From a virus, in the IMG/VR virus record IMGVR_UViG_3300021438_000015, positions 1 to 63,666 of that record: a stretch of DNA of 63,666 bases; one strand, 5' to 3'. The notes below the pieces were generated by a model. The model did no database searches. It worked only from the letters and a program-made list of their open reading frames with translations, and was not told where the DNA came from. Position numbers and translations under genes: made by a program. Shown here piece by piece: positions 3,272 to 63,666 of this stretch; positions within the stretch are counted from its first letter, which is position 1; each line of letters opens with the position of its first letter.

Positions 3272-3300
3272 ATTATACCTTGTCGATGAGGCTTTGTCAA
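3272..3300 (-). promoter_or_regulatory. Consensus sigma70 promoter for the 2841-3245 gene
   Basis: TTGACA, 17-base spacer, TATAAT on the minus strand, matching consensus at every hexamer position. The -35 overlaps the stop codon of the upstream gene. Confidence 0.8.
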
Positions 3301-7030: not shown

Positions 7031-7058
7031 ATTATACCATACTTATCGGCTATGTCAA
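7031..7058 (-). promoter_or_regulatory. Consensus sigma70 promoter for the 6779-7000 gene
   Basis: TTGACA, 16-base spacer containing AGCCGATAAGTA, TATAAT on the minus strand. Confidence 0.78.
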
Positions 7059-7465
7059 GGGGCAATCTCAAATATTTTTAAATATAATCTTGTGCCAAAG
7101 CAAGAAATATTCTCTAGAGCAAATGCTGTGCCAAATATATTATTCTCTTAAACAGAAGATCGACACGATCATATCATTAGTCGTAAGTCTATACCCTATA
7201 AGGGTTTACGTCAAAAATTTCGGGGCGTATGCGTCGTAAACCTATACCCCACAAGCACTTACGTTGACTAGATGGTTGACACGATCTACTCTTTAGTAAG
7301 ATGGGGGATATAGGGGGGTTTTATCTTATAAGTATTTTAGGCAATATACGTCGAAAAAGTCGAGGGTGGTCCATCCACAATTTAGAATGTATAAACATAT
7401 GTATTACCCGATCCACCCGCATCGCCCCTGCTTGAATCATTGAATCTGTTAATTTATCAATATGG
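7059..7465. other. Gene-free divergent control region
   Basis: No supportable gene. It contains TGTGCCAAA at 7091-7099, a sigma54-like element at 7118-7134, a repeated GACACGATC (about 7162 and 7276), two imperfect hairpins related to the GCGGCCCGCC elements (7182-7212 and 7233-7266), and a T-rich G-tract segment at 7299-7325. Transcription changes from minus to plus strand here, so this is the divergent switch between the two arms. Confidence 0.6.
7118..7134 (-). promoter_or_regulatory. Sigma54-like -24/-12 element, site 4
   Basis: Minus strand TTGGCACAGCATTTGCT, GG-N10-GC spacing. It lies about 60 bases upstream of the sigma70-type promoter at 7031-7058, so it would be a second promoter for the 6779-7000 gene if active. 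Confidence 0.4.
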
Positions 7466-7476
7466 TGTGTATAATA
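7466..7476 (+). promoter_or_regulatory. Late-type promoter motif TGTGTATAATA
   Basis: TGTGTATAATA with no recognisable -35 box at 16-18 bases upstream. It precedes the first plus-strand gene (7495) and matches the motifs at 26782, 29821 and 39691. Confidence 0.6.
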
Positions 7477-7494
7477 CCATATAGGAGACATTTT

Positions 7495-7668
7495 ATGAAA
7501 AAGAAACAAACAATTGAAACGCAATTGGATTGTCGCGCTACGGCATCTTTGCAGGAACAAATAAACTCTGATTTACTTCATGAGGATAAATTACTAGCCT
7601 CGTTACTTAGCGACAAAGATACCGTTATAAACGAGGAACAGGATGACGAAACCAAGTCAAGCGATTGA
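7495..7668 (+). CDS. Small hypothetical protein, first gene of the plus-strand arm
   Basis: A 57-residue protein from the ATG at 7495, chosen because TAGGAGACATTTT is its ribosome binding site; the in-frame ATG at 7462 lies upstream of the promoter -10. It is MKKKQTIETQLDCRATASLQ followed by an acidic tail. No family recognised. It overlaps the next gene by 26 bases. Confidence 0.65.
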   Translation: MKKKQTIETQLDCRATASLQEQINSDLLHEDKLLASLLSDKDTVINEEQDDETKSSD

Positions 7669-8422
7669 ATTAGTAGCTAATGTAGATGATAGTAACGACC
7701 TACTATTATGCGGCATTGATGGTATACAACACGCTAACTACGATTATTCAGCGGCCCATTATTATGGAACTATAAGTTCTGATAATAGTGTTAGTAACGT
7801 ATTTGGTCTTGGTGAAAATAATAAATTCTTCTATATCTTGATGTCCTTTCGTGACAATCAAATAGTTAGATACGAAGCTGGTACTGGTTATGGGTATGAA
7901 AAAGATGGTAAGCACTACTTTAATAGATACTTACCAATGTATGAGGGCAAGAACCCCCAACATCAACAACTAGTTAAAAAAAATAAAGAAAAATATATTT
8001 GTCTTGATGATGCTGTTAATGTTTTAGTTTCATCTTTCCCCCCCGACTATTCATTAATGTTTTACGATAAGAATTGCGTCTTATCTTCTTTTGATAAATC
8101 GGTTCCCCATGCGATACAAGTACTTGAAAATTCTTTCTTAGCTCGCGTTGACGTTAACGATATTTCCAACGTGTCTTTCGATAGTAAGGTTTTTAGTGAT
8201 ATTATAGCTGAAGCTTTAACGAAGTACACTAAACAGCTATCGCTTAAAGCTTCAAAACTTAGCGTTGGCAAATTGTCTGCAAAGCATTTTCAATTAGAGC
8301 CATCTAGTGATCTTAACGTTAAAAAGGGTACTTTTATATACGATGAAACAACGGATACTGTTAAGTTTTATAACGGAGAAAAATGGAGAACGTTAAAGTG
8401 GGTAGACGAAGAATCGGAATGA
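7643..8422 (+). CDS. Hypothetical protein
   Basis: A 259-residue protein. The N-terminal half (about 1-150) is a mixed fold with GTGYGYEKDGKHYFNRYLP; the middle is helical; the C-terminus ends with IYDETTDTVKFYNGEKWRTL, a short beta motif common at the ends of phage virion proteins. GAGGAACAGG precedes the ATG. I do not recognise a family. It lies directly upstream of the sigma-like gene and overlaps it, so the two are probably co-translated. Confidence 0.75.
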   Translation: MTKPSQAIELVANVDDSNDLLLCGIDGIQHANYDYSAAHYYGTISSDNSVSNVFGLGENNKFFYILMSFRDNQIVRYEAGTGYGYEKDGKHYFNRYLPMYEGKNPQHQQLVKKNKEKYICLDDAVNVLVSSFPPDYSLMFYDKNCVLSSFDKSVPHAIQVLENSFLARVDVNDISNVSFDSKVFSDIIAEALTKYTKQLSLKASKLSVGKLSAKHFQLEPSSDLNVKKGTFIYDETTDTVKFYNGEKWRTLKWVDEESE

Positions 8423-8907
8423 AAATACCTAAAAATATGACGGAAGCACAAGTTGTGGATCAGATTAACATTGTCGTTAATAGGATATCGGCCCGTTATA
8501 CTTTTCATGGTTACGAAGTTGATGATATAAAACAAGAAGCTTTTATAATTTGTATGGATGCTATGGATCGCTATGATCCAAGTCGCCCCTTGGAGAATTT
8601 CCTGTCTGTTCACTTATCTAATCGCCTTAAAAACTTTGTTCGTGATAACTTTTATACTAAAGATGAAGAAGAAAAAAAGAAAGTTTTAAAACCTAGTAGT
8701 TTATCTTATGAAGACTTTACTCCCAGTACAGAATACAACAATGATAATAAGATAGATGCTAAAAATCTACAAGAGATTGTTGATCGCAAGTTACCTTCAG
8801 AGTTCCGCGCAGATTATCTAAAAATAATTAATAATGTATACGTACCGAAAAAAAGAAGAGAAGAAATCATTGCGATAATCAAGGAGTTACTAGATGAAGA
8901 AGGGTAG
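8383..8907 (+). CDS. Sigma-70 region 2-like protein, candidate late sigma factor (T4 gp55-like)
   Basis: A 174-residue protein. Residues 44-90 (YEVDDIKQEAFIICMDAMDR, then YDPSRPLENFLSVHLSNRLKN) match the region 2.1-2.2 pattern of sigma factors (D..QE......A...YD...P..FL......N....R), the part that contacts the RNA polymerase core. There is no clear region 4, as in T4 gp55, a minimal sigma that reads only a -10-like late promoter. The plus-strand units here carry a -10-like motif without -35, fitting this role. Start: GGAG lies 4 bases before the ATG at 8383; an ATGA overlap at 8419 is an alternative that keeps the domain. The family assignment is good; the late role is inference. Confidence 0.75.
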   Translation: MENVKVGRRRIGMKIPKNMTEAQVVDQINIVVNRISARYTFHGYEVDDIKQEAFIICMDAMDRYDPSRPLENFLSVHLSNRLKNFVRDNFYTKDEEEKKKVLKPSSLSYEDFTPSTEYNNDNKIDAKNLQEIVDRKLPSEFRADYLKIINNVYVPKKRREEIIAIIKELLDEEG

Positions 8908-26781: not shown

Positions 26782-26797
26782 TTTTTGTGTATATTAT
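26782..26797 (+). promoter_or_regulatory. Late-type promoter motif upstream of protease/scaffold
   Basis: TTTTTGTGTATATTAT, matching the motif ahead of other late units; TATATT at 26790-26795, about 25 bases before the ATG at 26822. No -35 box. Confidence 0.6.
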
Positions 26798-26821
26798 CTT
26801 GAGAGACACCAAGGAAAAAAT

Positions 26822-29789: not shown

Positions 29790-29824
29790 AAAGCCATCCT
29801 CAAGCGATTGGGGGTGGCTTTTTT
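29790..29824 (+). terminator. Intrinsic terminator after the major capsid gene
   Basis: AAAGCCATCC pairs with GGGGTGGCTTT across an 11-base loop and is followed by a T run. It limits read-through from the highly expressed capsid gene. The T run merges directly into the next late promoter motif. Confidence 0.85.
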
Positions 29825-29834
29825 GTGTATAATA
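29821..29834 (+). promoter_or_regulatory. Late-type promoter motif after the capsid terminator
   Basis: TTTTGTGTATAATA with TATAAT at 29828-29833, fused to the T tract of the terminator. The usual -35 position would lie in the terminator stem and has no match. It restarts transcription for 29876 onward. Confidence 0.65.
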
Positions 29835-29875
29835 CATTAGATAACGTTATCCAAGGATATGAATAGGAGAAAAAT

Positions 29876-38200: not shown

Positions 38201-39029
38201 AACCACTACTACAGAGACTCCACCTACAACAGATGAGCCTAAAGTAACTACTACTACCATTGGACCAACCGATACACCTACTACTGGTGAACCAACTACT
38301 GGTGGACCCACATTACCACCACCAACTACACCGACAACTAATAGCCCAACCACTAGCAATCCAACAACATCATCTCCTACAACTGCTGGTCCTCCCCCAT
38401 TTGATCCCGGCCTATGCCCAATAGGCTTTTCTCCAACTCCTATAGGATGTTGCCCAGAAGGGTGGGGTGCAGTAAATGGATTATGTTGTCCACCGGGAGA
38501 AGATTGTGGTGGCGGCGGGGGTGGAGGAAATGATCCAGTTCCTCCAGAAAATCCTCCCGGCGATCCAGCTGATTGTAGAACGTGTTATGACTGTCAAACC
38601 GGCCCCGGTGAAGATCCAGACGGACCATGCTCTGCACAAGAAGTGTGTGGTGGAGATACATGTAGATCTAGAGGTCTTTGGCCATATTTAAATATTTGTA
38701 ATAAAAATAAAAAAGATGCAAAATGGTATCATTCAGCATATTTTTATCATATGCGTGATGCTACACAATGTTTTTATACAGCAACAATAGGTGGTCAAGA
38801 AGTACCGGTAAGAATTTGGAAACAAGGCAAATTTGATTCTCTTGAAGAATGCCAAGGCTGTGAAATTCCAGCTATATGGCAAACTCAGATATGTGACGTA
38901 TATCCATTTTCAAATGCGTGCTATAAAGATTGTAGAAATACACCTGCCTCAGAAATATCTAAAATTCCATGTGATTGGGTTCCACCTCCAGAAGATCCCG
39001 ACGAACCCAATCAGGGCGGTGAACAATAG
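35247..39029 (+). CDS. Giant mucin-like, FN3-containing, cysteine-rich protein
   Basis: A 1260-residue mosaic. Order: N-terminal domain (1-165); FN3-like module (about 169-268, GPVTGIIIKHIDINDILVSW, LEISNNNGITWSLVNNT); three 11-residue Thr/Ser units (TTSTSTTLGGS, 285-318); second FN3-like module (333-455); SST repeat (460-505); Pro/Thr linker; a beta domain (about 594-710); Thr-rich stretch (713-811); Cys-rich module (812-960); Pro/Thr linker (964-1050); Cys-rich C-terminus (1051-1260) with a Gly run. It overlaps the preceding mucin-like gene by 4 bases, so both are made together and probably form one surface structure. No family match for the whole. Confidence 0.8.
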   Translation: MSCPCGSILIPKGTKYSEYGLGLRILHTQGEIVLKLVHDQDSILNNGQEFITTSEKCLVNSDIVINGFELFWDKKFPSIVSLNGSVQVSIKQYLSELILGFENINVLDSEKLSLQQCYSQSVNLFNKKLLVSIKSICFNDISCCGKSPSLSLSPYSKTISIPCLQDRKVGPVTGIIIKHIDINDILVSWDPIVNNRQVFYKLEISNNNGITWSLVNNTIRNEYLIQDLADGTYQIRITPFINIANGDYIMSIYGISLLSNYFTINTSTIGPVTGVTITPVIKTSTTTSTSTTLGGSTTSTSTTLGGSTTSTSTTLGGSTTTFNPIINISTTSSPTGENTDVIVSWTLLNGGSSEVIYLIELSNNGGITWTTIGTTSNTSYLIQNLANGDYIIRITPLQFSNEGWLVITQDANGNTYSNIVASNLLNNFISNLPSEIFIINKIPISLTSVSTEKIFTIPFVASTTSSTSSTSSTSSTSSTSSTSSTSSTSSTSSTSSTSTTTSTTETPCPPAFPCPPFDPIYGSLYEEYTDEFCVQHCLYDNGNVDTTNPPTTTENPSVTSTSTTNGPSTTPVIEPTVTEPPVRTSTSTTVTDSPCPPVPSDFKADIALSSSDNTSTSFVGTVSLPSDSPYNLSSFRLRARTVVTNNDGSQAKDYSAGVFYGIGGNSKYQDILIGSYAVTDEEKCRIKLIFTVAYGTDDPSCGIDNEFIFDNCGTSTTSSTTSTTNTTSSTSSTEPPTTTSTTTNTTGTTSTTSSSSTTDEPTTTRAILTPSTIEPPPSSTTTTTSTSTSTTGSTSTTTTPEPPSTTPTTTTRGPCDPSQVAGTCPPSNDCINWIDGGVNPRTCSKVCIPEEKTGLCCYTEGNASSFFIGTCEECYAKQNVTSFKSGVECQGSECATLCNTFGCDALVGCKQDAGDMSLSDCRDNCMKPYYCYQPGKPCAVSATWVDISTDPNAFTSTFECQQKCTTTATTTIEPPPTTTGTTDQPTTTTETPPTTDEPKVTTTTIGPTDTPTTGEPTTGGPTLPPPTTPTTNSPTTSNPTTSSPTTAGPPPFDPGLCPIGFSPTPIGCCPEGWGAVNGLCCPPGEDCGGGGGGGNDPVPPENPPGDPADCRTCYDCQTGPGEDPDGPCSAQEVCGGDTCRSRGLWPYLNICNKNKKDAKWYHSAYFYHMRDATQCFYTATIGGQEVPVRIWKQGKFDSLEECQGCEIPAIWQTQICDVYPFSNACYKDCRNTPASEISKIPCDWVPPPEDPDEPNQGGEQ
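36102..36200 (+). repeat. 33-base minisatellite, three units
   Basis: Three identical 33-base units encoding TTSTSTTLGGS. The same unit length (11 codons) as the array at 34366 but a different sequence. Confidence 0.9.
36642..36740 (+). repeat. 9-base SST repeat tract
   Basis: Tandem 9-base units encoding Ser-Ser-Thr (TCTAGTACA / TCTAGTACT), about eleven units, forming a low-complexity linker. Confidence 0.85.
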
Positions 39030-39041
39030 TTAGTTTTTGGC

Positions 39042-39047
39042 TATAAT
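39042..39047 (+). promoter_or_regulatory. Late-type promoter motif (variant)
   Basis: TTTTTGGCTATAATAG: TATAAT at 39042-39047, 40 bases before the ATG at 39087, with the usual T run but GGC replacing GTG. No clear -35 box. Confidence 0.45.
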
Positions 39048-39086
39048 AGAATAAATAAAGTATTTCAATAAAGGAAAGGAAATTTT

Positions 39087-39689: not shown

Positions 39690-39690
39690 T

Positions 39691-39704
39691 TTTGGTGTAT
39701 ATTA
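39691..39704 (+). promoter_or_regulatory. Late-type promoter motif
   Basis: TTTGGTGTATATTA with TATATT at 39698-39703, two bases after the stop of the previous gene. It precedes the connector gene at 39741. Confidence 0.6.
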
Positions 39705-45808: not shown

Positions 45809-45810
45809 TT

Positions 45811-45822
45811 TTAGTGTATAAC
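45811..45822 (+). promoter_or_regulatory. Late-type promoter motif before the tail tube gene
   Basis: TTAGTGTATAAC (and an overlapping TATAAT at 45804-45809), 37 to 50 bases upstream of the tail tube ATG. Fits the plus-strand motif with one change. Confidence 0.5.
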
Positions 45823-45858
45823 TAACTAGAGCTTACCATCTTAAAATAGGAGAGAATT

Positions 45859-55400: not shown

Positions 55401-56343
55401 TGGTGATCAAAGATTAATGAATTTATATGGTGGAGAAGCTCTTGGTACAGCTTATCAAGATATTCAACGACAACAAGATGCTGGAGTTCAAACTTTATAT
55501 GGTCAACAGCTTGCTGGCCCCGGCGGTTTGACTGAAGCCGCTGCAAATGCAGCACTTTCTTCTAGAGGTATCAATGACATGAGAGCCGCACAAGTGATGG
55601 CCGGAACTACTCCAGAGGAAGAAGCTAGCAAGGCTAGACTAAGAGAACTTGGTGGGGTATTAGGAGATACTGGTCAACTTGGGGCAGAAATGGCAGAAAT
55701 GCAAGTGCAAACTGCTACTATAAATGTAAATAGCGCACAATTAAAATTTAGCGAAGTTATGAATAGAGGAAATGAAAAAGCCAAGGAAGCACAAAATATA
55801 GAAAATCAAAAAGCAAATGGTATGTCTAGGGGAGGTCCGGTATATGCAAGTCGTGGTATTTTTGTGCCTCGCGGAACTGATACTATTCCAGCCATGTTAA
55901 CCCCCGGTGAATTTGTAGTAAATAGGGCGGCTGTTCAAAGGGATAATAATTTAAGTATATTACAAGCGATGAATAATGGCTCTGGAAGTGTATCTAATGA
56001 TAGCGGCGCAGTATTAATGGCCCGTGGAGGCATGGTGAGATATAGAAGTGCTGGCAGTTCAAATCCAGAATCACCAGCATCTGGCGGTATGTTTGAAAAT
56101 ATGTCTAAGTTTGTTACAGCAATTTCTAATTTTAATTCAGATTTATCTTCTAATATTGACAAACTTGGAAATACTAAAATCAGTATTAAATTAGATTCAA
56201 CAAGTGTAAGCATCAACCTAAATGATGGCGGATTATTAAAGGCTCTTACATCTCAAGTTAAACAAGAAATATTTAATTTAGTAAAGACTAGATTAGTTGC
56301 TGGAGAAGGTGGAAGACTAAGGGAAAACGCTGGTGTAATATGA
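49489..56343 (+). CDS. Tail tape measure protein
   Basis: A 2284-residue protein. N-terminal Gln-rich helical part, then a TP901-type core (about 95-220: TSIDFERQLIKVAQVTGKSI, TGFGVASSDLLEVSTVLAQA), hydrophobic membrane-like segments around 1165-1370 (AGGAIGTIIGGIAGMFAGPG), long coiled coils, and three copies of a G(T/N)DT(V/I)PA(M/L)L(T/S)PGEFV motif (451-508, 901-949, 2113-2167). It sets tail length: at about 0.15 nm per residue, roughly 340 nm. GGAGAATT precedes the ATG. The C-terminus overlaps the next gene by 4 bases. Confidence 0.95.
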   Translation: MSKFVLTAQLQLQAPNNVKQVVQQIQNQLQGVNVNIQVQGSPQAQKQLQQVTQQANQATSAAERMGKAFALSIRRFAAFSIATRAVGLFTSTLNDAVQTSIDFERQLIKVAQVTGKSISQLRGLTKQITNLSTGFGVASSDLLEVSTVLAQAGLSAEDTSVALKTLAKAALAPNFDSISETAEGAIAILAQFQEGVGALEKQLGSINAVAGAFAVEASDLIDVVRRTGGVFKSSGGNLNELLALFTSVRATTRESAESIGTGLRTIFTRIQRPKTIEFLKQFGVELVDLNGKFVGPYEAIKKLSEALSGLGEGDLTFISIAEELGGFRQIGKVLPLLQQFSTAQSALNVAMKAGDSLTQDAASAQAALAIRIMKVKEEFLALIRSVTETSTFQVMANTALSLASALIKIGDAIKPLLPMLAALAAFKLVKGMGGFFGGMMSGATSGRTYNKGGKVLGFARGGLVPGTGNSDTVPAMLSPGEFVIRKSSVNKMGADTLAAMNSNRYAYGGKARTFGIAALDGTQDSKSANIPISAIREKLGINTDKAGNKNLDMVIRGVLGSKGSDLNVTAKSDTVTLNDPGIKDAIYNNIKSQMYGLITSSATALSNGTGIPMRKRSINPNKVLAKVGTDSTIGSVFEGALGLLGGPFSAGKSTAAIDYPRGLGKMASAFSSLANMPVDAKKTADSKKISEMLNKKIPNFFAEFIKRSPQYASFKSQLNQGKLDKLKGREFDLTEYQRVTGNSKATLSDLSGIASLSRKSGQRQLFRLAEKFADGGEVVQQGTQKYLASDVVKAMRELQNNPSLSEKDAIDLFTSRGANGDFIYTNWGGKGSIKPPKWLAPYKPPASAAYSAWEQAQADRQNRIADAMQKQGRAMRDYEGQTSDQKEFLASRGLGYRRKRYATGGGVGTDTVPALLTPGEFVINRASAQRIGYNNLHRMNKVGKYATGGVVQRFASGGTPTASSFQSNIRSAANTGAIEKDIADLSKSIKITKTRIDAYNPAIQHHTDTVDKLYKDSAKLDIQLSKYNTELIRLANQQGKATATGTAANRILDLKMKAETEAIRVEQLALQEEQKLTNIKKQQEQLIQQQNQQLAQKSQLAAQAKQQKQAATNAIGSTLQGGTQSSLVDVNAKGKAIVRQNRKDAARSASSFGGGGNPIKDIGGAAIAVSMVTASLQAMLPPLDENSSTLTQLSHSFLGLITTLSGVAFALQSFGVTLKAQSAIKFLSGGGLSADGIQSVFNAVKGMGGSTNLAGNIAGVANSFAKMLGPTIAIVGGLTILKMAVDNVSEYFNRFEEKKQAAIQKGDIETAGKVAGSQARNATSISGTFAGGAIGTIIGGIAGMFAGPGGAIIGAKIGASVGSLVGAITEDFFAGGLVEEASNTAMAFAANSKASKDLAKAQSDAALAAEKFKNGTISADEYLNTFSQSAKSISESKQYADKVTKQSTENRSTGFGALGRDIVTGLGGGLMGMEWSSTRNKRLSQEGIDVVKTQRENESKLFDSSTEARNAVIRSTIARGGSIEDAQKKVKEKTGFDAEDMRRRASTLGFQAERARQSGDAKLAGELDTQSQGLFAQANQLEDSFENLEKEVRRAKESYDAMNLGLRSASATASALSASMDHFSSGLEVGGSQFVNDVEFLQQAMSSSAQAMDPAEIKSAVKGVSDNLRQFGSSEEYIKKFEGNVAAFTQAQGNYNKAFDNIKKSMADKDFKNLSPDDLKKKFAEELTNGMGKDVSEEAKKNLKAVINGMELDSGDVDKIMAGDLSVFGDKLSEAQKKMLEDVQKIAQERAKAEQVLIDFTKKRIDAERNLVQAQQEALDLVMEGREIQGKYGGAAVTNEERKQNLLAKSNVESNRLGLTAMRTGDVGDLRRRNAELKGNFAAIEARRSQQGGMQGQAGVMADEESKDLQKAYKTQIETIRGLIKLEEEQLKITQEKNKLEKESMESLIKGDVEEFFKKQSAAGATAAIASGDQRLMNLYGGEALGTAYQDIQRQQDAGVQTLYGQQLAGPGGLTEAAANAALSSRGINDMRAAQVMAGTTPEEEASKARLRELGGVLGDTGQLGAEMAEMQVQTATINVNSAQLKFSEVMNRGNEKAKEAQNIENQKANGMSRGGPVYASRGIFVPRGTDTIPAMLTPGEFVVNRAAVQRDNNLSILQAMNNGSGSVSNDSGAVLMARGGMVRYRSAGSSNPESPASGGMFENMSKFVTAISNFNSDLSSNIDKLGNTKISIKLDSTSVSINLNDGGLLKALTSQVKQEIFNLVKTRLVAGEGGRLRENAGVI

Positions 56344-59300
56344 GCTTGACATTATGTAGTTCTAATGAAAAAGTTAGACTAAGTGGTGATAGTCGCCTAG
56401 TAGGAAAACTATCATTTACTAGTAATAATTTTTCAGTTCGACTATCTTCAATAGGAAGTATCAAGCCAAAAGCAACTATTTATAGAGATTTAAAAGTATC
56501 ATTACCATCGAATCCCACCTTTATTGCTAATGAAAGTGTTGATTTTTCTCTCAAGAGAGAACTTTTAGAAATTGGTGCTGGCAATATCCGTGGATATAAT
56601 TCTTGTAGTCTAGGATCAAGTGTAAGAACATCAGCCATATCTAATTTTAAAAGCTCTTTTACTGATAAATTTTCTGGCTATAGACCAAACTTTATTGCTT
56701 ATGAAAAGTTATATCCACTTCAAGACATATCATTCAAGAGCAAGTTTACCAATAGGAACATAAATGTTTATAAAATAGAGAATAATCTATTTAGTCCTAC
56801 TAATATATATAGTAGTATTGATGAAGGCGTTTTTACTGGAAACTATACCGACAATGGCAAACTTGGCTCTGTAGTATCAGATGATTCAAAATCATTTGCA
56901 CTTACCTTTAGAGTTTTTGCGTCTGGAGATATTCAATATAAATTTCGGGTTGCAAAACCAACATCTGTGGCTAAATTAAGTTATTTAGCTATTAGAGCAT
57001 CTGCCCCCTTTGACAATTATGCTCAAAAGAAACCGCAGCAATATAAAATATATGATATCAAATTTGAAGATCCAAGCGGTAATTTAATTATTCAATATGA
57101 AGATATATCAATACGCGGCGATAGTTATTATACTACATATTTATCTAAACCATTAGTCAATAATTTGCTGTTACCAACTTGGGATAGTAAATATCCCTTG
57201 ATGGATACAAATGGTTTTTATACTTTGACACTTAACATGTCATTTGATTGTAATGCTTATCCATTTACTAGTAATTTTGATACTGGATATGAGCAAACAT
57301 GTATAATTAATTCAAACATTTTAAGTCCAAATCCATTTATTAGTTTAAATATATCTGCACTTGAAATCGGCAGTAGTGGAGGAGTTGGGATTTTAAGAGA
57401 TAATTATCTTGCTCTATCTTTGAAGGCTCAAGAAAAATCTCAAAGAGAAAAAAGAACTTTATTGCCAACGCAGTTATTTACATATGATTTTGACAATGGT
57501 ATATATCCACAAGCTAGCAGCATATGGCAATCGACCGCGAATGAAATAATCTATAATAACACTATTTCATCTGATACTAGCGTTCTTTTAGGTAAAATCA
57601 GAAATGATGATCTCAGTCAATACATCAGCCTATTAGACTCTTTACCAGTTCAAAATAGTGGTAGATTAATTTTAAAATTTAATACTAAACCAGACCGTGA
57701 AGCATATGATGATTATGTTGGTGGCGCATTTAGGTTTGGAGGTTCTTCACAGTTTAATGATGCAAACTTAGTCAATTATCTACACAATGACAATTTTTTT
57801 GATATAGATACCTTGGAATTAAAAGTAATAGCGCGTAAGAAATCTGGAAGTCCAGATTATCCAATAGATGTCGTTGGTTACAGTGATGATAAATTGCTAA
57901 ATATAACACCAGCCATTGGTGGATTTTTGCAAAATAGTGGTGCTTTTGATTTTGATAGTAATCAAATGCCAGATTCATCTGGCTTTTTATCAAATACCTT
58001 TGGCATATCAGATAGTTCTTTATCTGATCAGTCTCAATATTTTCAAAGAGATATTGGCGATCACTATGCTTTTAATAACAGTCCAATTGTAGATAGTACT
58101 ACTTTTAAAGAGTATACAATACCATTACAGATATATCAAAATCCAAATAAGCTTGGATATACAAGATATTCTATCAGTTCATTTTTTGAAAATCTATATT
58201 TAGATATTTCTCCAATTTCTAGCGGTGCAGATATATGTAATGTTAAATTAAATGTATATTATAAACCAGCAAATGCTATTATGATGCATGTCTTGGGAAG
58301 CCCTCAAAATAAAAATGCTACTAGAAAAAATATTACTTTATTGCCAGCTTCAAATTATAATGAGAATCAAGTAAATACAAGTATAAAATTAAGTGGTATA
58401 CTAACTGGTTTATCTACTCCAAATTATATAAAATCTAATTACTCAAGGAGGTGGAGGGGTAATGATGGTAGAATCTTCTCAGGTGGAGACTTTAGCACAG
58501 AATCCTTTGATTTTTCTTTCAACCATAAACAAGCTATAAATCCATTTAAAACTTCGTACATAGACTTTAAAAACGTTGTTGAGGATAATGTATTTTCTTC
58601 AAATGGTGCTTTGGCTGGACAGTCTGACAATGACTTCAATATTCTTTCTAACTTTGGTTGGAGATATTCATCTAGCCAATTATTTCTTGGCACCACCACT
58701 CCATATAAATCTATAGCTTGGAGAAATAACATATTTGATGCCTTCGACCGAGCCGCTAGAATATCATCAGAAGACAAATTTGAAGTATATAATTTTAATA
58801 ATGATTCATTCACAAATTATGGAGATTCATCTAAAAATTTTGGTTTTGCTTTGTTTATTAGATTTACTCCAGATCAAGTTTCTGATTTATTGATAAATAA
58901 TCATTTGATTCTTTGCTATGAAAATTTTAGCACTTGGTCATTAGTTCTTATTTGTGAAAATGGCGAATTAAAATTAAAAGTTAAAGACTCTAACGACAAC
59001 ATAGTTACTATAAGCGATAGTAGGGGAATACTAGACTATCAATTCCCATTACCAATACTTATAACATATAATGATGATAATACATATAAATTTAAGCTAT
59101 ATACAGACAACGAATTATTTACTTTATTTAATAATTTAAGAGCAACATCACCATCAATAAATTCGACAAAAGTAATAACTGGCGCAACTTTGAAAGTTGG
59201 CCACTCTAGCACTTATACATCTCTACAACCATTGCCTATGTTTGTGCATGAGATAGGAATATCAAATGGTTCATGTAATATAGCAGAGTTTATAAACCCC

Positions 59301-62300
59301 TATGTATTGTCTAATAAAACGTCAATATCTAATTTCTTTTCTTCAAGTAGAATGTCTTTCAATGATATTTCATCTACTAACTTTAGATCAAATCAGTATT
59401 CTTATATTGATGATGATATATCGCTATGGAAATTAGGAGACTTCAAAGTATGTCAATTTTCACCAGACTTTGATTTTTTCACCAAGAGAAATGGTATAGA
59501 CTTCTTAAGTTTTGATTTGAAACATCATGGATCTGGATATAGTCAAATAACTAATTTATCTTTACCAGAAAAGATTATTACTTCTGGAGTTTCATACCAT
59601 ACTCAAATAGAAAATGACTTTTTAAGATTTAATTTGTCTAATATTCCTACTATTGATAAAGACAGATTTTATGCTATATCGCCTAGAATATCTAAGACTT
59701 TGCCAAGAGGATACAAATTTAATCAAGATGCTATTTGCGTTGATACAATTGTTGAACATGAAACCAACGACGATATTGTATGGCCCAATGGAAAAACTGG
59801 ACCAAAATTAATTGTAAGCTTGTACGCTAAAACCCAAGACAGTGATCAAAGGCCAAGCAAAATATTTGGTTTAATAAACAGATCAACTCATTATTTAGAG
59901 CCTTCTGGATGTATACGAAAATTAACTAGTAAATTTTCTTTTGATGACTTATTAGACAATTCAGAACCTTGGGCTTCATTTGATGTAGAATCATACACAA
60001 AGGAGTTTAAAGAAAAATATTTTTCTCAAGATATTGATAATATGTTTTTGCAATATGATCTAGTTTATCCCTCTGGTCGCCCTTTTTCATCTTTGATAAA
60101 GATTCACAGCGCAAATGTAAGAATAGAGGACGCCATATTTATAAGTGATAATAAAGATTCGCAGCTTAATTTATATGCTAGTGGTCAAAAGTATCAAGTT
60201 GGTCATTTAAATCTTTTTGTTCCAGAAAATGGACCAATAATATATTCTGGTATAGATTTATTTGTTAATGGTAATGGACCCATTAATTCCAATATGAATC
60301 TATTTATTGATAGCAGTGGATATCCATGTGAAAGTCCATATCTAACATTGTACACTGTATCTATTGGATCTTCTGATAGCGAAGAAGAAGTTTTTGGATC
60401 AATGTTTGGAGCATCTCCACGAAAAGGATTAAACTTATCTATAAGCGGTCAGTTCATGGTAGAAACAGATCTTTCATTATGTATAGAAGGATCTGGATAT
60501 TATGCTCAATCATATATTAATCTTAATACAGCAGTTGCTGAAGATATATATAAATTTGATAGTATTAATTTAAATGCACTGGGTAGATTAAAAGATGAAG
60601 ATTATTTCCCATACTCTACAGCATCATTGTTTGTTAATGGTCAAGAATTCCCAACAGAAATAAACAATTATTGTTACTTATATACCGTATCTGATGACAA
60701 AAATATAATTAAAAATTCTGGTGGAATGAATTTATTCACTATAAATTATCCAATTTCTTCATCGTTAGCAAATAATAGTGCATCCATAAGGTGGGATCAA
60801 AACAATGTTGGAAAAAATATTACAGTTCAAGATAATAGTTATGCCTATATTGATTCAGATGACAACATTCGTGGTGTTGACTTAGTTTGCTATGGTGTAT
60901 GTTCAAATAACATTCATAGATGCTACGAATCTACTGTAAATATACATGGTATTGAGTGGTACAATCCAGAAGTATGTGTAAATGGTGGAATATTTAGAGC
61001 AAAAAATACATATACTAATTTGAATTATCCAAGCGGTTCTTTTAGACATACTTTAGTATCTAATTTGTTCACTAGTATTACTACTGAGGATTTGATACCA
61101 TTATCTACTGAAAACAATTATGATATTATTGATGAAACAATTTCAAGTAATGTAATTTATGATCCTATGCCCTATAGTGGTCATTTTTATGGTATCAGAA
61201 AGTATAGCGGTTTAGCTCCAGACCTTCCATACTATGTAAACATTACTGGTAAAACTGGATCTACGCAACCTATAGATATACCTACAGAAATCATAGATGT
61301 AGAATACAACAAGCTTGAAGACGATAAAATAGATATTGACTATAAAGGGGTCAGACTATTAGCTAATTCAAATTACAGGCACTCTGGTGATAAGTTTGGC
61401 AAAGCCATTGCCTCTAAAGAAAACTTATTAGCCATTGGTTCGCCAATGAGATCAATAGTTTATAATAGTGGAATTGGATCAAATATAACTCTTCAAGAAG
61501 CTGGTTCAGTATTTTTGTATAAGAGACAAGACAGACCGGTTGGTAGTAGTTGGCCTTTAGAAAATTACAAATCTCCTTGGATGCTAGATGATGTAATAAC
61601 GTTGCCATCTGGCCTTATGAAAGATTATTTCTATAAAGAGAATATAACAATATCCAATTTACCATTTCAAGCTGTTAGAACAACTTGGTTTGTTGGTCAA
61701 GAGGGTAGACAATTCGGACATTCGGTTGATTTGTCTGTTAACAAAAATGAAAAATCGCTTGGGGAAAATTCTCGTCAGATACTAGTAGTTGGTGGACCAA
61801 GTGCTAAGTGGACCCCAAGACAGTTTGATTACAGTGAACCATCGGGCGTAAATGTTGGATTAATCATATTTACAGATGAATTTAAACCAAGAATACCAGC
61901 ACCGACATTAGGTGCGCCTTACAGAACTATAGGATATGAAGATGTATTATATGCTATCCAAGACAAAGATTTAGTATTTCATTATTTTTCTAATCCAAAA
62001 GTTAAATTTAATGTAAAACTTATTATATGTCAACCAATTGCTGATAGTCCAGAAATAACAGTATCAGAATTTCCAGATAAACCTTCGTTTATGACGCTAA
62101 AACCCATTAGTCGTAATATAGGATATCCAGTTACTACTGAACGCACATCTAAAATATTAAATGATATTAAATCTGCATTCTTTGAAGCATTTCCAGATAA
62201 CAACAATTTACCTCCGTTATTAGGATTATATGTTGATAATAGTAATTCATTAGGAAGAGAAGCTTTAGAACCAGCTATTGACCAATTTATAAATTTCTAT

Positions 62301-63666
62301 AAAAAATATACCTTTGATAACGGACTTGTTGATTTCAACCAGATAAGATCTTCTGGAGAAGTGATAGAATATATTCCAGATGATTATGACGCTGAAAACT
62401 GGGTAGACATGTCCAGACTTATACTTTCAGAAGTTTTAGACACTGGCAATCTTGTCAAAAACAATCAAGTTAGATTTTTTGCTCAAGAGGTTGGCAACTT
62501 TAATGAATCTGATGCGGGCTTTAACGTTCCACCAGAAAGTGGTGGAAAAGTATATATCTTCGAAAAAGAAAGCGGCTCTTGGAATTTAATACAAGAAATT
62601 AAATCGCCAAATGTAACATATGAACACCCAGATAGATTTGGACATTCAGTCAGCATAAGTGATGATGGAGAAGTTATAGCAATAGGATCACCTTATATAA
62701 ATCAAGCTGTAACTATTTACGAAAGAAAATCAGAACAAAGAGATCAATTCTATAATTCATTAATTGATTGGGTAGAGAACAATCGTTCAGAAAAATATTC
62801 AAAACAAATATCAGATTACTATGAATCAAGTAATCTAAAAAATAGGAAATATGATCTATACTTGAGCTTAGACAAAGAAGATAAATTCAAGTCCAGAGTA
62901 GATTTAAATATTGAAGAATATCAAAATATTTACACGTTTAATTATAGCAACATGCAACCGATTGGAAGTTGGTCGTTTATACCAGAAGCTGTAGCACCAA
63001 CATCAAGACTTGGATATGCAGTTGATGTAAATGAAGATGGTAGTATAGTAGTCGCAAGCGCACCAACAGACAGTTTGAATTTATACAACGACGGTGATGT
63101 TTATTATGCTCATAATGCCAACTTTAGAGATAAAGGTTTCTTTGGTGTTTCTTATTCTGATAATCCTTTTGGTCAAATAAAATCATCTTGGTCATCAAGT
63201 GTCAATGCTGGATCTATTCATGTATTTGAATCTCGTAAATATTATCCACATAATAAAGTTATTGAATATGGAAGATTTGGTAATTTGCATGAAATTACTA
63301 GTGATGATACCCCAGACTCTGGACACTTTCACTATCTAACAGATATTTTTAGTGATAAAAATTTCACAAAGACAGAATTTACAGATAGCAGCATACCAAA
63401 AGAAGCTGGATTAGTATTTATAATAACTCCAAAAGAAGATGCTCTTACTGTTAGCGATGAAGTATTTAATAATATCTATAACTGGTTGGCTCTAGGAGAT
63501 AGAAATTTAGTTTTGGTTGCCAATGATCCAATATGGGAAGGTAATGGTAAATATAAAAACTCAAACGATATACTAAACAAGCTATTAGAGAGATTGAATT
63601 CTAGGATGCGTATAGTACCAGCCAGAAGTAAATATGAATCTTTACCAGAAGGTTATGCATCATTTA
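56340..63666 (+). CDS. Giant distal tail or tail-tip protein with FG-GAP-like repeats (3' end outside window)
   Basis: An open frame of at least 2442 codons from the ATG at 56340 (ATGA overlap with the tape measure stop) to the window end. The position fits a distal tail or tip protein. It is Ser/Asn-rich with many beta segments. About residues 830-980 hold a LamG-like module (FGFALFIRFTPDQVSDLL, later TLKVGHS, FVHEIGIS). From about residue 1680 onward there are FG-GAP/integrin-like repeats (SGDKFGKAIASKENLLAIGS, GRQFGHSVDLS, DRFGHSVSISDDGEVIAIGS, RLGYAVDVNEDGSIVVASA), which in integrins form a beta-propeller binding surface. No protease, hydrolase or chaperone domain is visible in the part present. 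Confidence 0.8.
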   Translation, partial: MSLTLCSSNEKVRLSGDSRLVGKLSFTSNNFSVRLSSIGSIKPKATIYRDLKVSLPSNPTFIANESVDFSLKRELLEIGAGNIRGYNSCSLGSSVRTSAISNFKSSFTDKFSGYRPNFIAYEKLYPLQDISFKSKFTNRNINVYKIENNLFSPTNIYSSIDEGVFTGNYTDNGKLGSVVSDDSKSFALTFRVFASGDIQYKFRVAKPTSVAKLSYLAIRASAPFDNYAQKKPQQYKIYDIKFEDPSGNLIIQYEDISIRGDSYYTTYLSKPLVNNLLLPTWDSKYPLMDTNGFYTLTLNMSFDCNAYPFTSNFDTGYEQTCIINSNILSPNPFISLNISALEIGSSGGVGILRDNYLALSLKAQEKSQREKRTLLPTQLFTYDFDNGIYPQASSIWQSTANEIIYNNTISSDTSVLLGKIRNDDLSQYISLLDSLPVQNSGRLILKFNTKPDREAYDDYVGGAFRFGGSSQFNDANLVNYLHNDNFFDIDTLELKVIARKKSGSPDYPIDVVGYSDDKLLNITPAIGGFLQNSGAFDFDSNQMPDSSGFLSNTFGISDSSLSDQSQYFQRDIGDHYAFNNSPIVDSTTFKEYTIPLQIYQNPNKLGYTRYSISSFFENLYLDISPISSGADICNVKLNVYYKPANAIMMHVLGSPQNKNATRKNITLLPASNYNENQVNTSIKLSGILTGLSTPNYIKSNYSRRWRGNDGRIFSGGDFSTESFDFSFNHKQAINPFKTSYIDFKNVVEDNVFSSNGALAGQSDNDFNILSNFGWRYSSSQLFLGTTTPYKSIAWRNNIFDAFDRAARISSEDKFEVYNFNNDSFTNYGDSSKNFGFALFIRFTPDQVSDLLINNHLILCYENFSTWSLVLICENGELKLKVKDSNDNIVTISDSRGILDYQFPLPILITYNDDNTYKFKLYTDNELFTLFNNLRATSPSINSTKVITGATLKVGHSSTYTSLQPLPMFVHEIGISNGSCNIAEFINPYVLSNKTSISNFFSSSRMSFNDISSTNFRSNQYSYIDDDISLWKLGDFKVCQFSPDFDFFTKRNGIDFLSFDLKHHGSGYSQITNLSLPEKIITSGVSYHTQIENDFLRFNLSNIPTIDKDRFYAISPRISKTLPRGYKFNQDAICVDTIVEHETNDDIVWPNGKTGPKLIVSLYAKTQDSDQRPSKIFGLINRSTHYLEPSGCIRKLTSKFSFDDLLDNSEPWASFDVESYTKEFKEKYFSQDIDNMFLQYDLVYPSGRPFSSLIKIHSANVRIEDAIFISDNKDSQLNLYASGQKYQVGHLNLFVPENGPIIYSGIDLFVNGNGPINSNMNLFIDSSGYPCESPYLTLYTVSIGSSDSEEEVFGSMFGASPRKGLNLSISGQFMVETDLSLCIEGSGYYAQSYINLNTAVAEDIYKFDSINLNALGRLKDEDYFPYSTASLFVNGQEFPTEINNYCYLYTVSDDKNIIKNSGGMNLFTINYPISSSLANNSASIRWDQNNVGKNITVQDNSYAYIDSDDNIRGVDLVCYGVCSNNIHRCYESTVNIHGIEWYNPEVCVNGGIFRAKNTYTNLNYPSGSFRHTLVSNLFTSITTEDLIPLSTENNYDIIDETISSNVIYDPMPYSGHFYGIRKYSGLAPDLPYYVNITGKTGSTQPIDIPTEIIDVEYNKLEDDKIDIDYKGVRLLANSNYRHSGDKFGKAIASKENLLAIGSPMRSIVYNSGIGSNITLQEAGSVFLYKRQDRPVGSSWPLENYKSPWMLDDVITLPSGLMKDYFYKENITISNLPFQAVRTTWFVGQEGRQFGHSVDLSVNKNEKSLGENSRQILVVGGPSAKWTPRQFDYSEPSGVNVGLIIFTDEFKPRIPAPTLGAPYRTIGYEDVLYAIQDKDLVFHYFSNPKVKFNVKLIICQPIADSPEITVSEFPDKPSFMTLKPISRNIGYPVTTERTSKILNDIKSAFFEAFPDNNNLPPLLGLYVDNSNSLGREALEPAIDQFINFYKKYTFDNGLVDFNQIRSSGEVIEYIPDDYDAENWVDMSRLILSEVLDTGNLVKNNQVRFFAQEVGNFNESDAGFNVPPESGGKVYIFEKESGSWNLIQEIKSPNVTYEHPDRFGHSVSISDDGEVIAIGSPYINQAVTIYERKSEQRDQFYNSLIDWVENNRSEKYSKQISDYYESSNLKNRKYDLYLSLDKEDKFKSRVDLNIEEYQNIYTFNYSNMQPIGSWSFIPEAVAPTSRLGYAVDVNEDGSIVVASAPTDSLNLYNDGDVYYAHNANFRDKGFFGVSYSDNPFGQIKSSWSSSVNAGSIHVFESRKYYPHNKVIEYGRFGNLHEITSDDTPDSGHFHYLTDIFSDKNFTKTEFTDSSIPKEAGLVFIITPKEDALTVSDEVFNNIYNWLALGDRNLVLVANDPIWEGNGKYKNSNDILNKLLERLNSRMRIVPARSKYESLPEGYASF

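Follow-up and report, generated by a model that had tools for sequence, protein, structure and literature searches.

A probable late sigma factor reduced to region 2 and a one-piece late promoter in a group of large uncultivated phages

The IMG/VR record IMGVR_UViG_3300021438_000015 (63,666 bases, 35.7% GC), analysed here over its whole length and referred to as the window, has in its ORF list a plus-strand reading frame at 8383-8907 that raises the question of whether a sigma factor devoid of region 4 could direct transcription of phage structural genes from promoters devoid of a -35 box. An earlier note had suggested that this protein acts as a late sigma specific to the phage and recognizes a motif made of a -10 alone. 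Our analysis supports this proposal as the best explanation of the sequences, with the protein as the presumed reader of the motif. The phage group carries a small sigma-factor-like protein and, ahead of its virus-building genes, a matching one-piece promoter, TTTTnGTGTATAAT, by means of which host RNA polymerase is probably redirected to late genes, in the manner of T4 or phiEco32 but with new components.

The sigma protein and the phage group that carries it

The 8383-8907 reading frame matches the Pfam family Sigma70_r2 (PF04542) over residues 34-89 (E 4.2e-7) with a score of 30.1 bits against a gathering cutoff of 24, which places its product in the sigma-70 family by its region 2. The same family was matched in 54 of 54 relatives (E 3.7e-7 for the sigma protein in the relatives' search). 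Because the match covers positions 11-68 of the 71 in the profile, it spans regions 2.1 to 2.4; region 2 is therefore complete and not limited to regions 2.1-2.2, the part recognized at first. Translation is more likely to start at 8419 than at 8383, since the proteins of the relatives begin with MKIPKNMT, which corresponds to 8419 in the window, since this start overlaps the preceding gene by ATGA, and since a stop codon lies upstream of the MKIPKNMT start in three relatives. The product of 8419..8907 (+), predicted at 162 aa from the Pfam match, the start used by the relatives and an AlphaFold2 model, comprises region 2 followed by a small helical C-terminal domain and is probably the late sigma.

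Residues D36, Q39-F42, I44-M46, A48, R51, Y52, P57-L62, V64, L66-N72, R75 and D76 are invariant in 54 relatives, and regions 2.2-2.4 are near-invariant (DDIKQEAFIICMDAL..RYD..RPLENFLSVHLSNRLKNFVRDN). Few parts of the protein are as well conserved as region 2.3-2.4, the reader of the -10 element. The AlphaFold2 model has confident region-2 helices (9-27, 34-51 and 58-77), then a disordered linker and three C-terminal helices (108-124, 127-137 and 144-161), with a low full-length pTM of 0.45. In a Foldseek comparison, the region-2 model resembled sigma domain 2 (SigE N-terminal domain, 8b3z; TM 0.76 by target, 2.1 A, 73 columns). The statement that the protein has no clear region 4 was borne out, as no region 4 family was matched at E<=10 in the C-terminal segments of 43 members and the C-terminal domain modelled alone had no PDB fold match. 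ECF sigma factors (CnrH, SigE, SigW) have the region 2 nearest to that of the window's sigma. However, they have retained region 4 and recognize a -35 element, whereas the window's family has neither a detectable region 4, which membership of the ECF group (group IV) entails, nor a late -35.

Relatives of the sigma protein were found in 85 candidate IMG/VR stretches, 80 of which were kept (47-90% identity). None of 50,697 named phage records contained a match to the protein. Named phages matched terL and the head protein weakly only, and nothing close was present in the annotated phage collection searched; therefore, no host can be named. Two MAG contigs (SAR202 and Acidiferrobacteraceae) were rejected as too weak a clue to the host because phage contigs are often misbinned. 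Relatives of terL occur in at least 589 IMG/VR stretches. Six large relatives measure 136-174 kb, and two of them are probably complete, given their terminal repeats. The clade is a large uncultivated phage group with genomes of ~150-175 kb, and a search of the open-access literature found neither the group nor the motif described. Conservation was assessed in a set of seven genomes (~1 Mb), in which sigma identity to the window's protein goes down to 47%.

In each of the six large relatives, a single region-2 match exceeds the cut-off, and it is the orthologous sigma gene; a second, sub-threshold match was observed in G026. Wherever the flank is sufficient, the distance from the sigma gene to terL, downstream of it in the same orientation, is 3.9-6.7 kb, and the seven terL loci without a sigma match end 3.3-6.2 kb upstream, where the gene is partly or wholly cut off. 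All phages found carry the sigma gene and the motif together, leaving no sigma-less relative for a comparison of co-loss. Furthermore, the RNA polymerase beta subunit was absent from the six large relatives in a search whose positive control worked in 14 of 14 test genomes, and a phage-encoded multisubunit polymerase was rejected on this ground. Therefore, the host core polymerase is the likely partner of the sigma protein, whose predicted function would be to bind this core and support initiation.

Placement and conservation of the late motif

The sequence TTTTNGTGTATAWTA occurs exactly three times in the window (26782, 29820 and 39690), each time on the plus strand, in an intergenic position and 40-56 nt before a gene of the structural region; it was found 0 times in 100 shuffles of the window. 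Counts of the GTGTATA core in the window are at chance level (9 found, 10.4 expected), and the motif with 1-3 mismatches, counted in the window alone, is not above chance either. Therefore, placement and conservation were taken as evidence.

Genes of the relatives were called with a simple ORF caller, so that upstream and coding classes are approximate in the following rates. Across the seven genomes, GTGTATA reached 2.77/kb upstream of plus-strand genes versus 0.046/kb in plus-strand coding sequence, a 60-fold difference, and 1.03/kb upstream of minus-strand genes, with 0.046-0.065/kb in coding sequence. Across the clade loci, whose records partly overlap, the core was found at 2.34/kb upstream of plus-strand genes, 0.26/kb upstream of minus-strand genes and 0.035-0.039/kb in coding sequence. 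Sites of at least 14 bits under a position weight matrix occurred at 2.24/kb upstream versus 0.008/kb in coding sequence; the matrix was trained on upstream sites, unlike the core-only GTGTATA test. These rates refute an equal frequency of the motif inside genes, one of the outcomes that the earlier note had named as speaking against its proposal. In 30 records, every exact copy of the full motif had the same orientation as the sigma gene. The late motif is not confined to the plus strand, however: 22 of the 64 upstream GTGTATA core sites are on the minus strand, where some precede genes for HNH proteins and endonucleases.

Non-redundant late sites (n = 31 and n = 74; the two larger site sets overlap in some records) are T-rich just upstream of GTG and continue with TATAwT, and neither set contains information at the -35 position. 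A purine is found 7 nt after TATAAT, the expected +1 position, in 63 of 74 late sites. The late element thus includes the T-tract; it can be written TTTTnGTGTATAwT and would end about 7 nt before the purine start, with no -35 contact.

Three of the predicted late promoters are conserved in 7 of 7 genomes: TTTTTGTGTATATTA (26782..26796, +), 40 nt upstream of 26822 with a predicted start near 26802; TTTTTGTGTATAATA (29820..29834, +), 56 nt upstream of the head protein gene 29876 with a predicted start near 29840; and TTTTAGTGTATAACT (45809..45823, +), 50 nt upstream of 45859 with a predicted start near 45829. The first two agree with the -10-only motif initially reported before 26822 and 29876, and the third, initially called weak, is one of the best sites, being as widely conserved. 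The candidate TTTTGGTGTATATTA (39690..39704, +), upstream of 39741, held in part: it is present in the 4 closest genomes but absent in the 3 distant ones. Conversely, the weak site claimed before 39087, TTTTTGGCTATAATA (39034..39048, +), is probably no late promoter. It has no counterpart upstream of the orthologs, as the motif occurs in the window only, and it sits in a host-like TGAACA-N16-TATAAT at 39020-39047, so that the sequence is better read as chance or as a host-like -10.

Host-type early promoters and the promoter of the sigma operon

Of the upstream regions with the strict host-type arrangement TTGACA-N16-18-TATAAT, 61 belong to minus-strand genes and 2 to plus-strand genes, in agreement with the claim that minus-strand genes use TTGACA-N16/17-TATAAT. 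Examples, predicted from the class statistics, are an N16 promoter at 7031..7058 (-) and an N17 promoter at 3272..3300 (-). Minus-strand genes include those for DNA polymerase III alpha (DnaE), DnaB, RecA and ribonucleotide reductase (RNR), and plus-strand genes those for protease, terminase, head and tail. In the relative G002, the plus-strand genes form a single block that begins with the sigma operon and reaches about 107 kb. A G directly precedes TATAAT in 45 of the 61 host-type promoters. As this G is common to both classes, part of the late motif could reflect polymerase or host preferences, and its origin is treated with caution for that reason.

In the window, the operon whose last gene is sigma begins with a small ORF at 7495..7668 (+; in the ORF list, with ATG, RBS and protein start conserved in the alignment of relatives), followed by a second gene at 7643..8422 (+), identified from the ORF list and the relatives, whose end forms the ATGA overlap with sigma. 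Orthologs of this second gene are present in 5 of the 6 large relatives (22-64% identity); its product matched no Pfam family and had a single, sub-significant PHROG match (E 0.024). A predicted -10 element of the GGTGTATAAT type lies upstream of the operon at 7466..7476 (+). The site before 7495 had been listed together with the structural ones. Its GTGTATAAT is indeed conserved, and the sigma operon promoter retains it, but without the T-tract, which sets it apart as a separate, hybrid class. Upstream of the sigma gene, at 300-1300 nt, GTGTATA was found in 79 of the 89 loci with enough sequence, with about 5% expected at the coding-sequence rate.

The other half of the hybrid is a -35-like element. 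TTG, TGG or GTG at -20 to -18, that is, with an exact 17-nt spacer to TATAAT, was observed in 21 of 44 non-redundant sigma-operon sites, as against at most 7 of 44 at other offsets from -30 to -3; 2000 shuffles peaked at 10-11 and none reached 21. Stricter redundancy removal left the 17-nt TTG-like element in 16 of 36 sigma-operon sites. In structural late sites, this position holds such an element in 6 of 74 cases. The -35 half is degenerate in the window itself. A hybrid promoter of this kind may be startable by host polymerase and perhaps sustained by the phage sigma.

A conserved non-coding leader at about 7300-7440, before the sigma operon, contains GGGGATATAGGGGGGTTTTATCTTATAAGTA and a C-rich block of the CCCATCGCCCC type and has no Rfam match; the Rfam search returned tRNAs only. 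The tRNA cluster (775-1152) is preceded on the minus strand by TTGACA-N17-TATAAT at 1185-1213, which also contains GTGTATAAT and may be another hybrid promoter.

Several other genes were noted on the two strands. The early region contains, on its plus strand, a gene for an endonuclease VII-like product (1236-1778; phrog_1035, E 1e-20), with GTGTATAGTA directly upstream at 1222-1236; its T4 counterpart, gene 49, is expressed late. A lone gene on the plus strand, about 119 aa long and without a PHROG match, lies in the minus-strand early region of G002 (L082:787-1143:+) and in orthologous places in G003 and G009, with its own late-type motif in the three genomes. On the minus strand of G002, DNA polymerase III alpha is encoded by two ORFs (PHP + NTPase; finger) at 120218-124266 (L088), a split DnaE, and two genes with an Mtd N-terminal domain (major tropism determinant) lie on the same, early strand at 143187-147039 (L089). 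At the end of the window (56339-63666, +), a very large reading frame runs off the record and is coding despite an empty ORF list; a G002 gene of 3,739 aa occupies the corresponding place.

A proposed early-to-late switch and its alternatives

We consider it likely, with good confidence, that the 162-aa protein is a phage late sigma made of region 2 and a clade-specific helical tail, which reads -10-only promoters on the host core. This reading is favoured because there is a single sigma gene and no RNA polymerase beta, and because the phages have two promoter classes, with no -35 in the late one and conserved late sites. In the proposed mechanism, a host sigma-70-type holoenzyme would transcribe the minus strand, with its early and replication genes, from TTGACA-N16/17-TATAAT and would also start the sigma operon from the hybrid promoter (TTG-like -35, 17-nt spacer, GTGTATAAT). 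The phage sigma would bind the host RNA polymerase core via region 2 and, lacking region 4, would depend on a strong -10 consisting of GTGTATAwT and the upstream T-tract. The phage holoenzyme so formed would transcribe the structural operons and may sustain the hybrid sigma promoter, resulting in an early-to-late relay.

A more specific version, which we advance tentatively and hold to be somewhat short of an even chance, is that an undescribed family of region-2-only sigma factors runs the clade by a three-tier code. Early genes would be read by the host from TTGACA/TATAAT; the hybrid TTG-17-GTGTATAAT would be read by both holoenzymes as a self-sustaining switch; and structural genes would be read from T-tract-GTGTATAAT, the T-tract replacing the -35 and once doubling as a terminator U-tract, with no dedicated clamp or region 4 partner. 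Such a sequence-level early/late switch would make late genes predictable in a large uncultivated phage group with hundreds of terL relatives in IMG/VR, and the hybrid promoter would provide a concrete, testable design for a phage that starts its own switch. Furthermore, the many natural promoter variants found beside many sigma variants could be informative about -10 recognition by region 2.

Among known systems, gp36 of phiEco32 comes nearest in the way it works: it has no region 4 and uses single-element promoters (tAATGTAtA) with starts 6-8 nt downstream for middle and late genes (PMC8948821; PMC4331800). As in gp36 (Kuravirus), the absence of region 4 goes together here with single-element late promoters that have a TGTATA core, no -35 and a position before structural genes; phiEco32 also relies on host RNA polymerase, and its early genes, which lie on the opposite strand, have promoters of the host sigma-70 type (PMC8948821, PMC4331800). 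An hhalign comparison with one gp36 sequence gave a Prob of 1%, which does not indicate kinship. Unlike phiEco32, the window's clade has the T-tract and GTG, a genome ~2x as large, a hybrid sigma-operon promoter and no cultivated member. The late sigma gp47 of phage 7-11 likewise works with host polymerase (PMC8948821); unlike the window's sigma, it has a region 4 and uses bipartite promoters.

In T4, gp55 is a small sigma with region 2 only that reads a -10-only late promoter (TATAAATA) before structural genes and needs gp33 and gp45 for activation (PMC7892883; PMC2988020; PMC2984593). The same pairing of region 2 only with -10-only promoters before structural genes was found here, and the two proteins have a local F-x-GY...KQE resemblance in common. 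These likenesses, together with the PolIII alpha of these phages, which could allow the host beta clamp to serve, are what speaks for a strictly gp55-like protein that depends on a sliding clamp together with a gp33-like coactivator and is coupled to replication. We nevertheless judge this unlikely. Aligning the 54-member family with a 20-member gp55 family in hhalign gave a Prob of only 6% over 40 columns, and phrog_234 (gp55) was matched weakly by 8 of 54 members (best 5.5e-4). At the genome level, a phrog_234 search of the six relatives gave no match, and its control was empty too. No beta-clamp gene (PF02767) was found in a search whose control worked, the gp45-type search (PF02916), like one for a T7-type RNA polymerase, lacked a working control and carries no weight, and the C-terminus showed no recognisable clamp-binding tail. 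The promoter sequence, the C-terminal domain and the PolIII-type replication also differ from those of T4. Thus, the comparison "like T4 gp55" made at the outset holds for function, but kinship with the gp55 family is not significant. The sigma protein would work like gp55 and gp36 and is filed in neither family. It adds to the known sigma factors that have only region 2 and serve late promoters with a -10 alone, and it appears unrelated to them.

A somewhat poorer prospect is that the host primary sigma reads the late motif as an extended -10 with the help of another phage activator, the region-2 protein being employed otherwise, for example in blocking the host sigma or in coactivating. TATAAT is intact in the late motif, the G at -13 is common to early promoters, and the promoter of the sigma operon combines a -35-like part with GTGTATAAT, all of which such a reading would accommodate. 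However, the invariant late bases are G-T-G at -15 to -13 and not the TGn of an extended -10, with TG at -15/-14, and the T-tract and the missing -35 distinguish the late motif from all host-type promoters that these genomes contain. The strong conservation of region 2.3-2.4 also argues for a protein that itself reads a -10.

That the motif belongs to terminators or mRNA leaders and is no promoter is very improbable, for although the 29876 site comes immediately after a terminator hairpin, with which it has the T-tract in common, stable hairpins precede no more than 12 of the 74 late sites and none of the 44 sigma-operon sites, and the motif is kept in the rest. The predicted terminator hairpin follows the major-head-protein-like gene 28752, at 29790..29821 (+), with a 14-bp stem and a fold of about -18 to -22 kcal/mol in 7 of 7 genomes, and it is kept in all of them though the stem sequences differ. 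Between 28752 and 29876 (window 29790-29834), the terminator and the 29820 late promoter use one T-tract, so that the terminator would end one transcript and its T-tract would serve the next late promoter.
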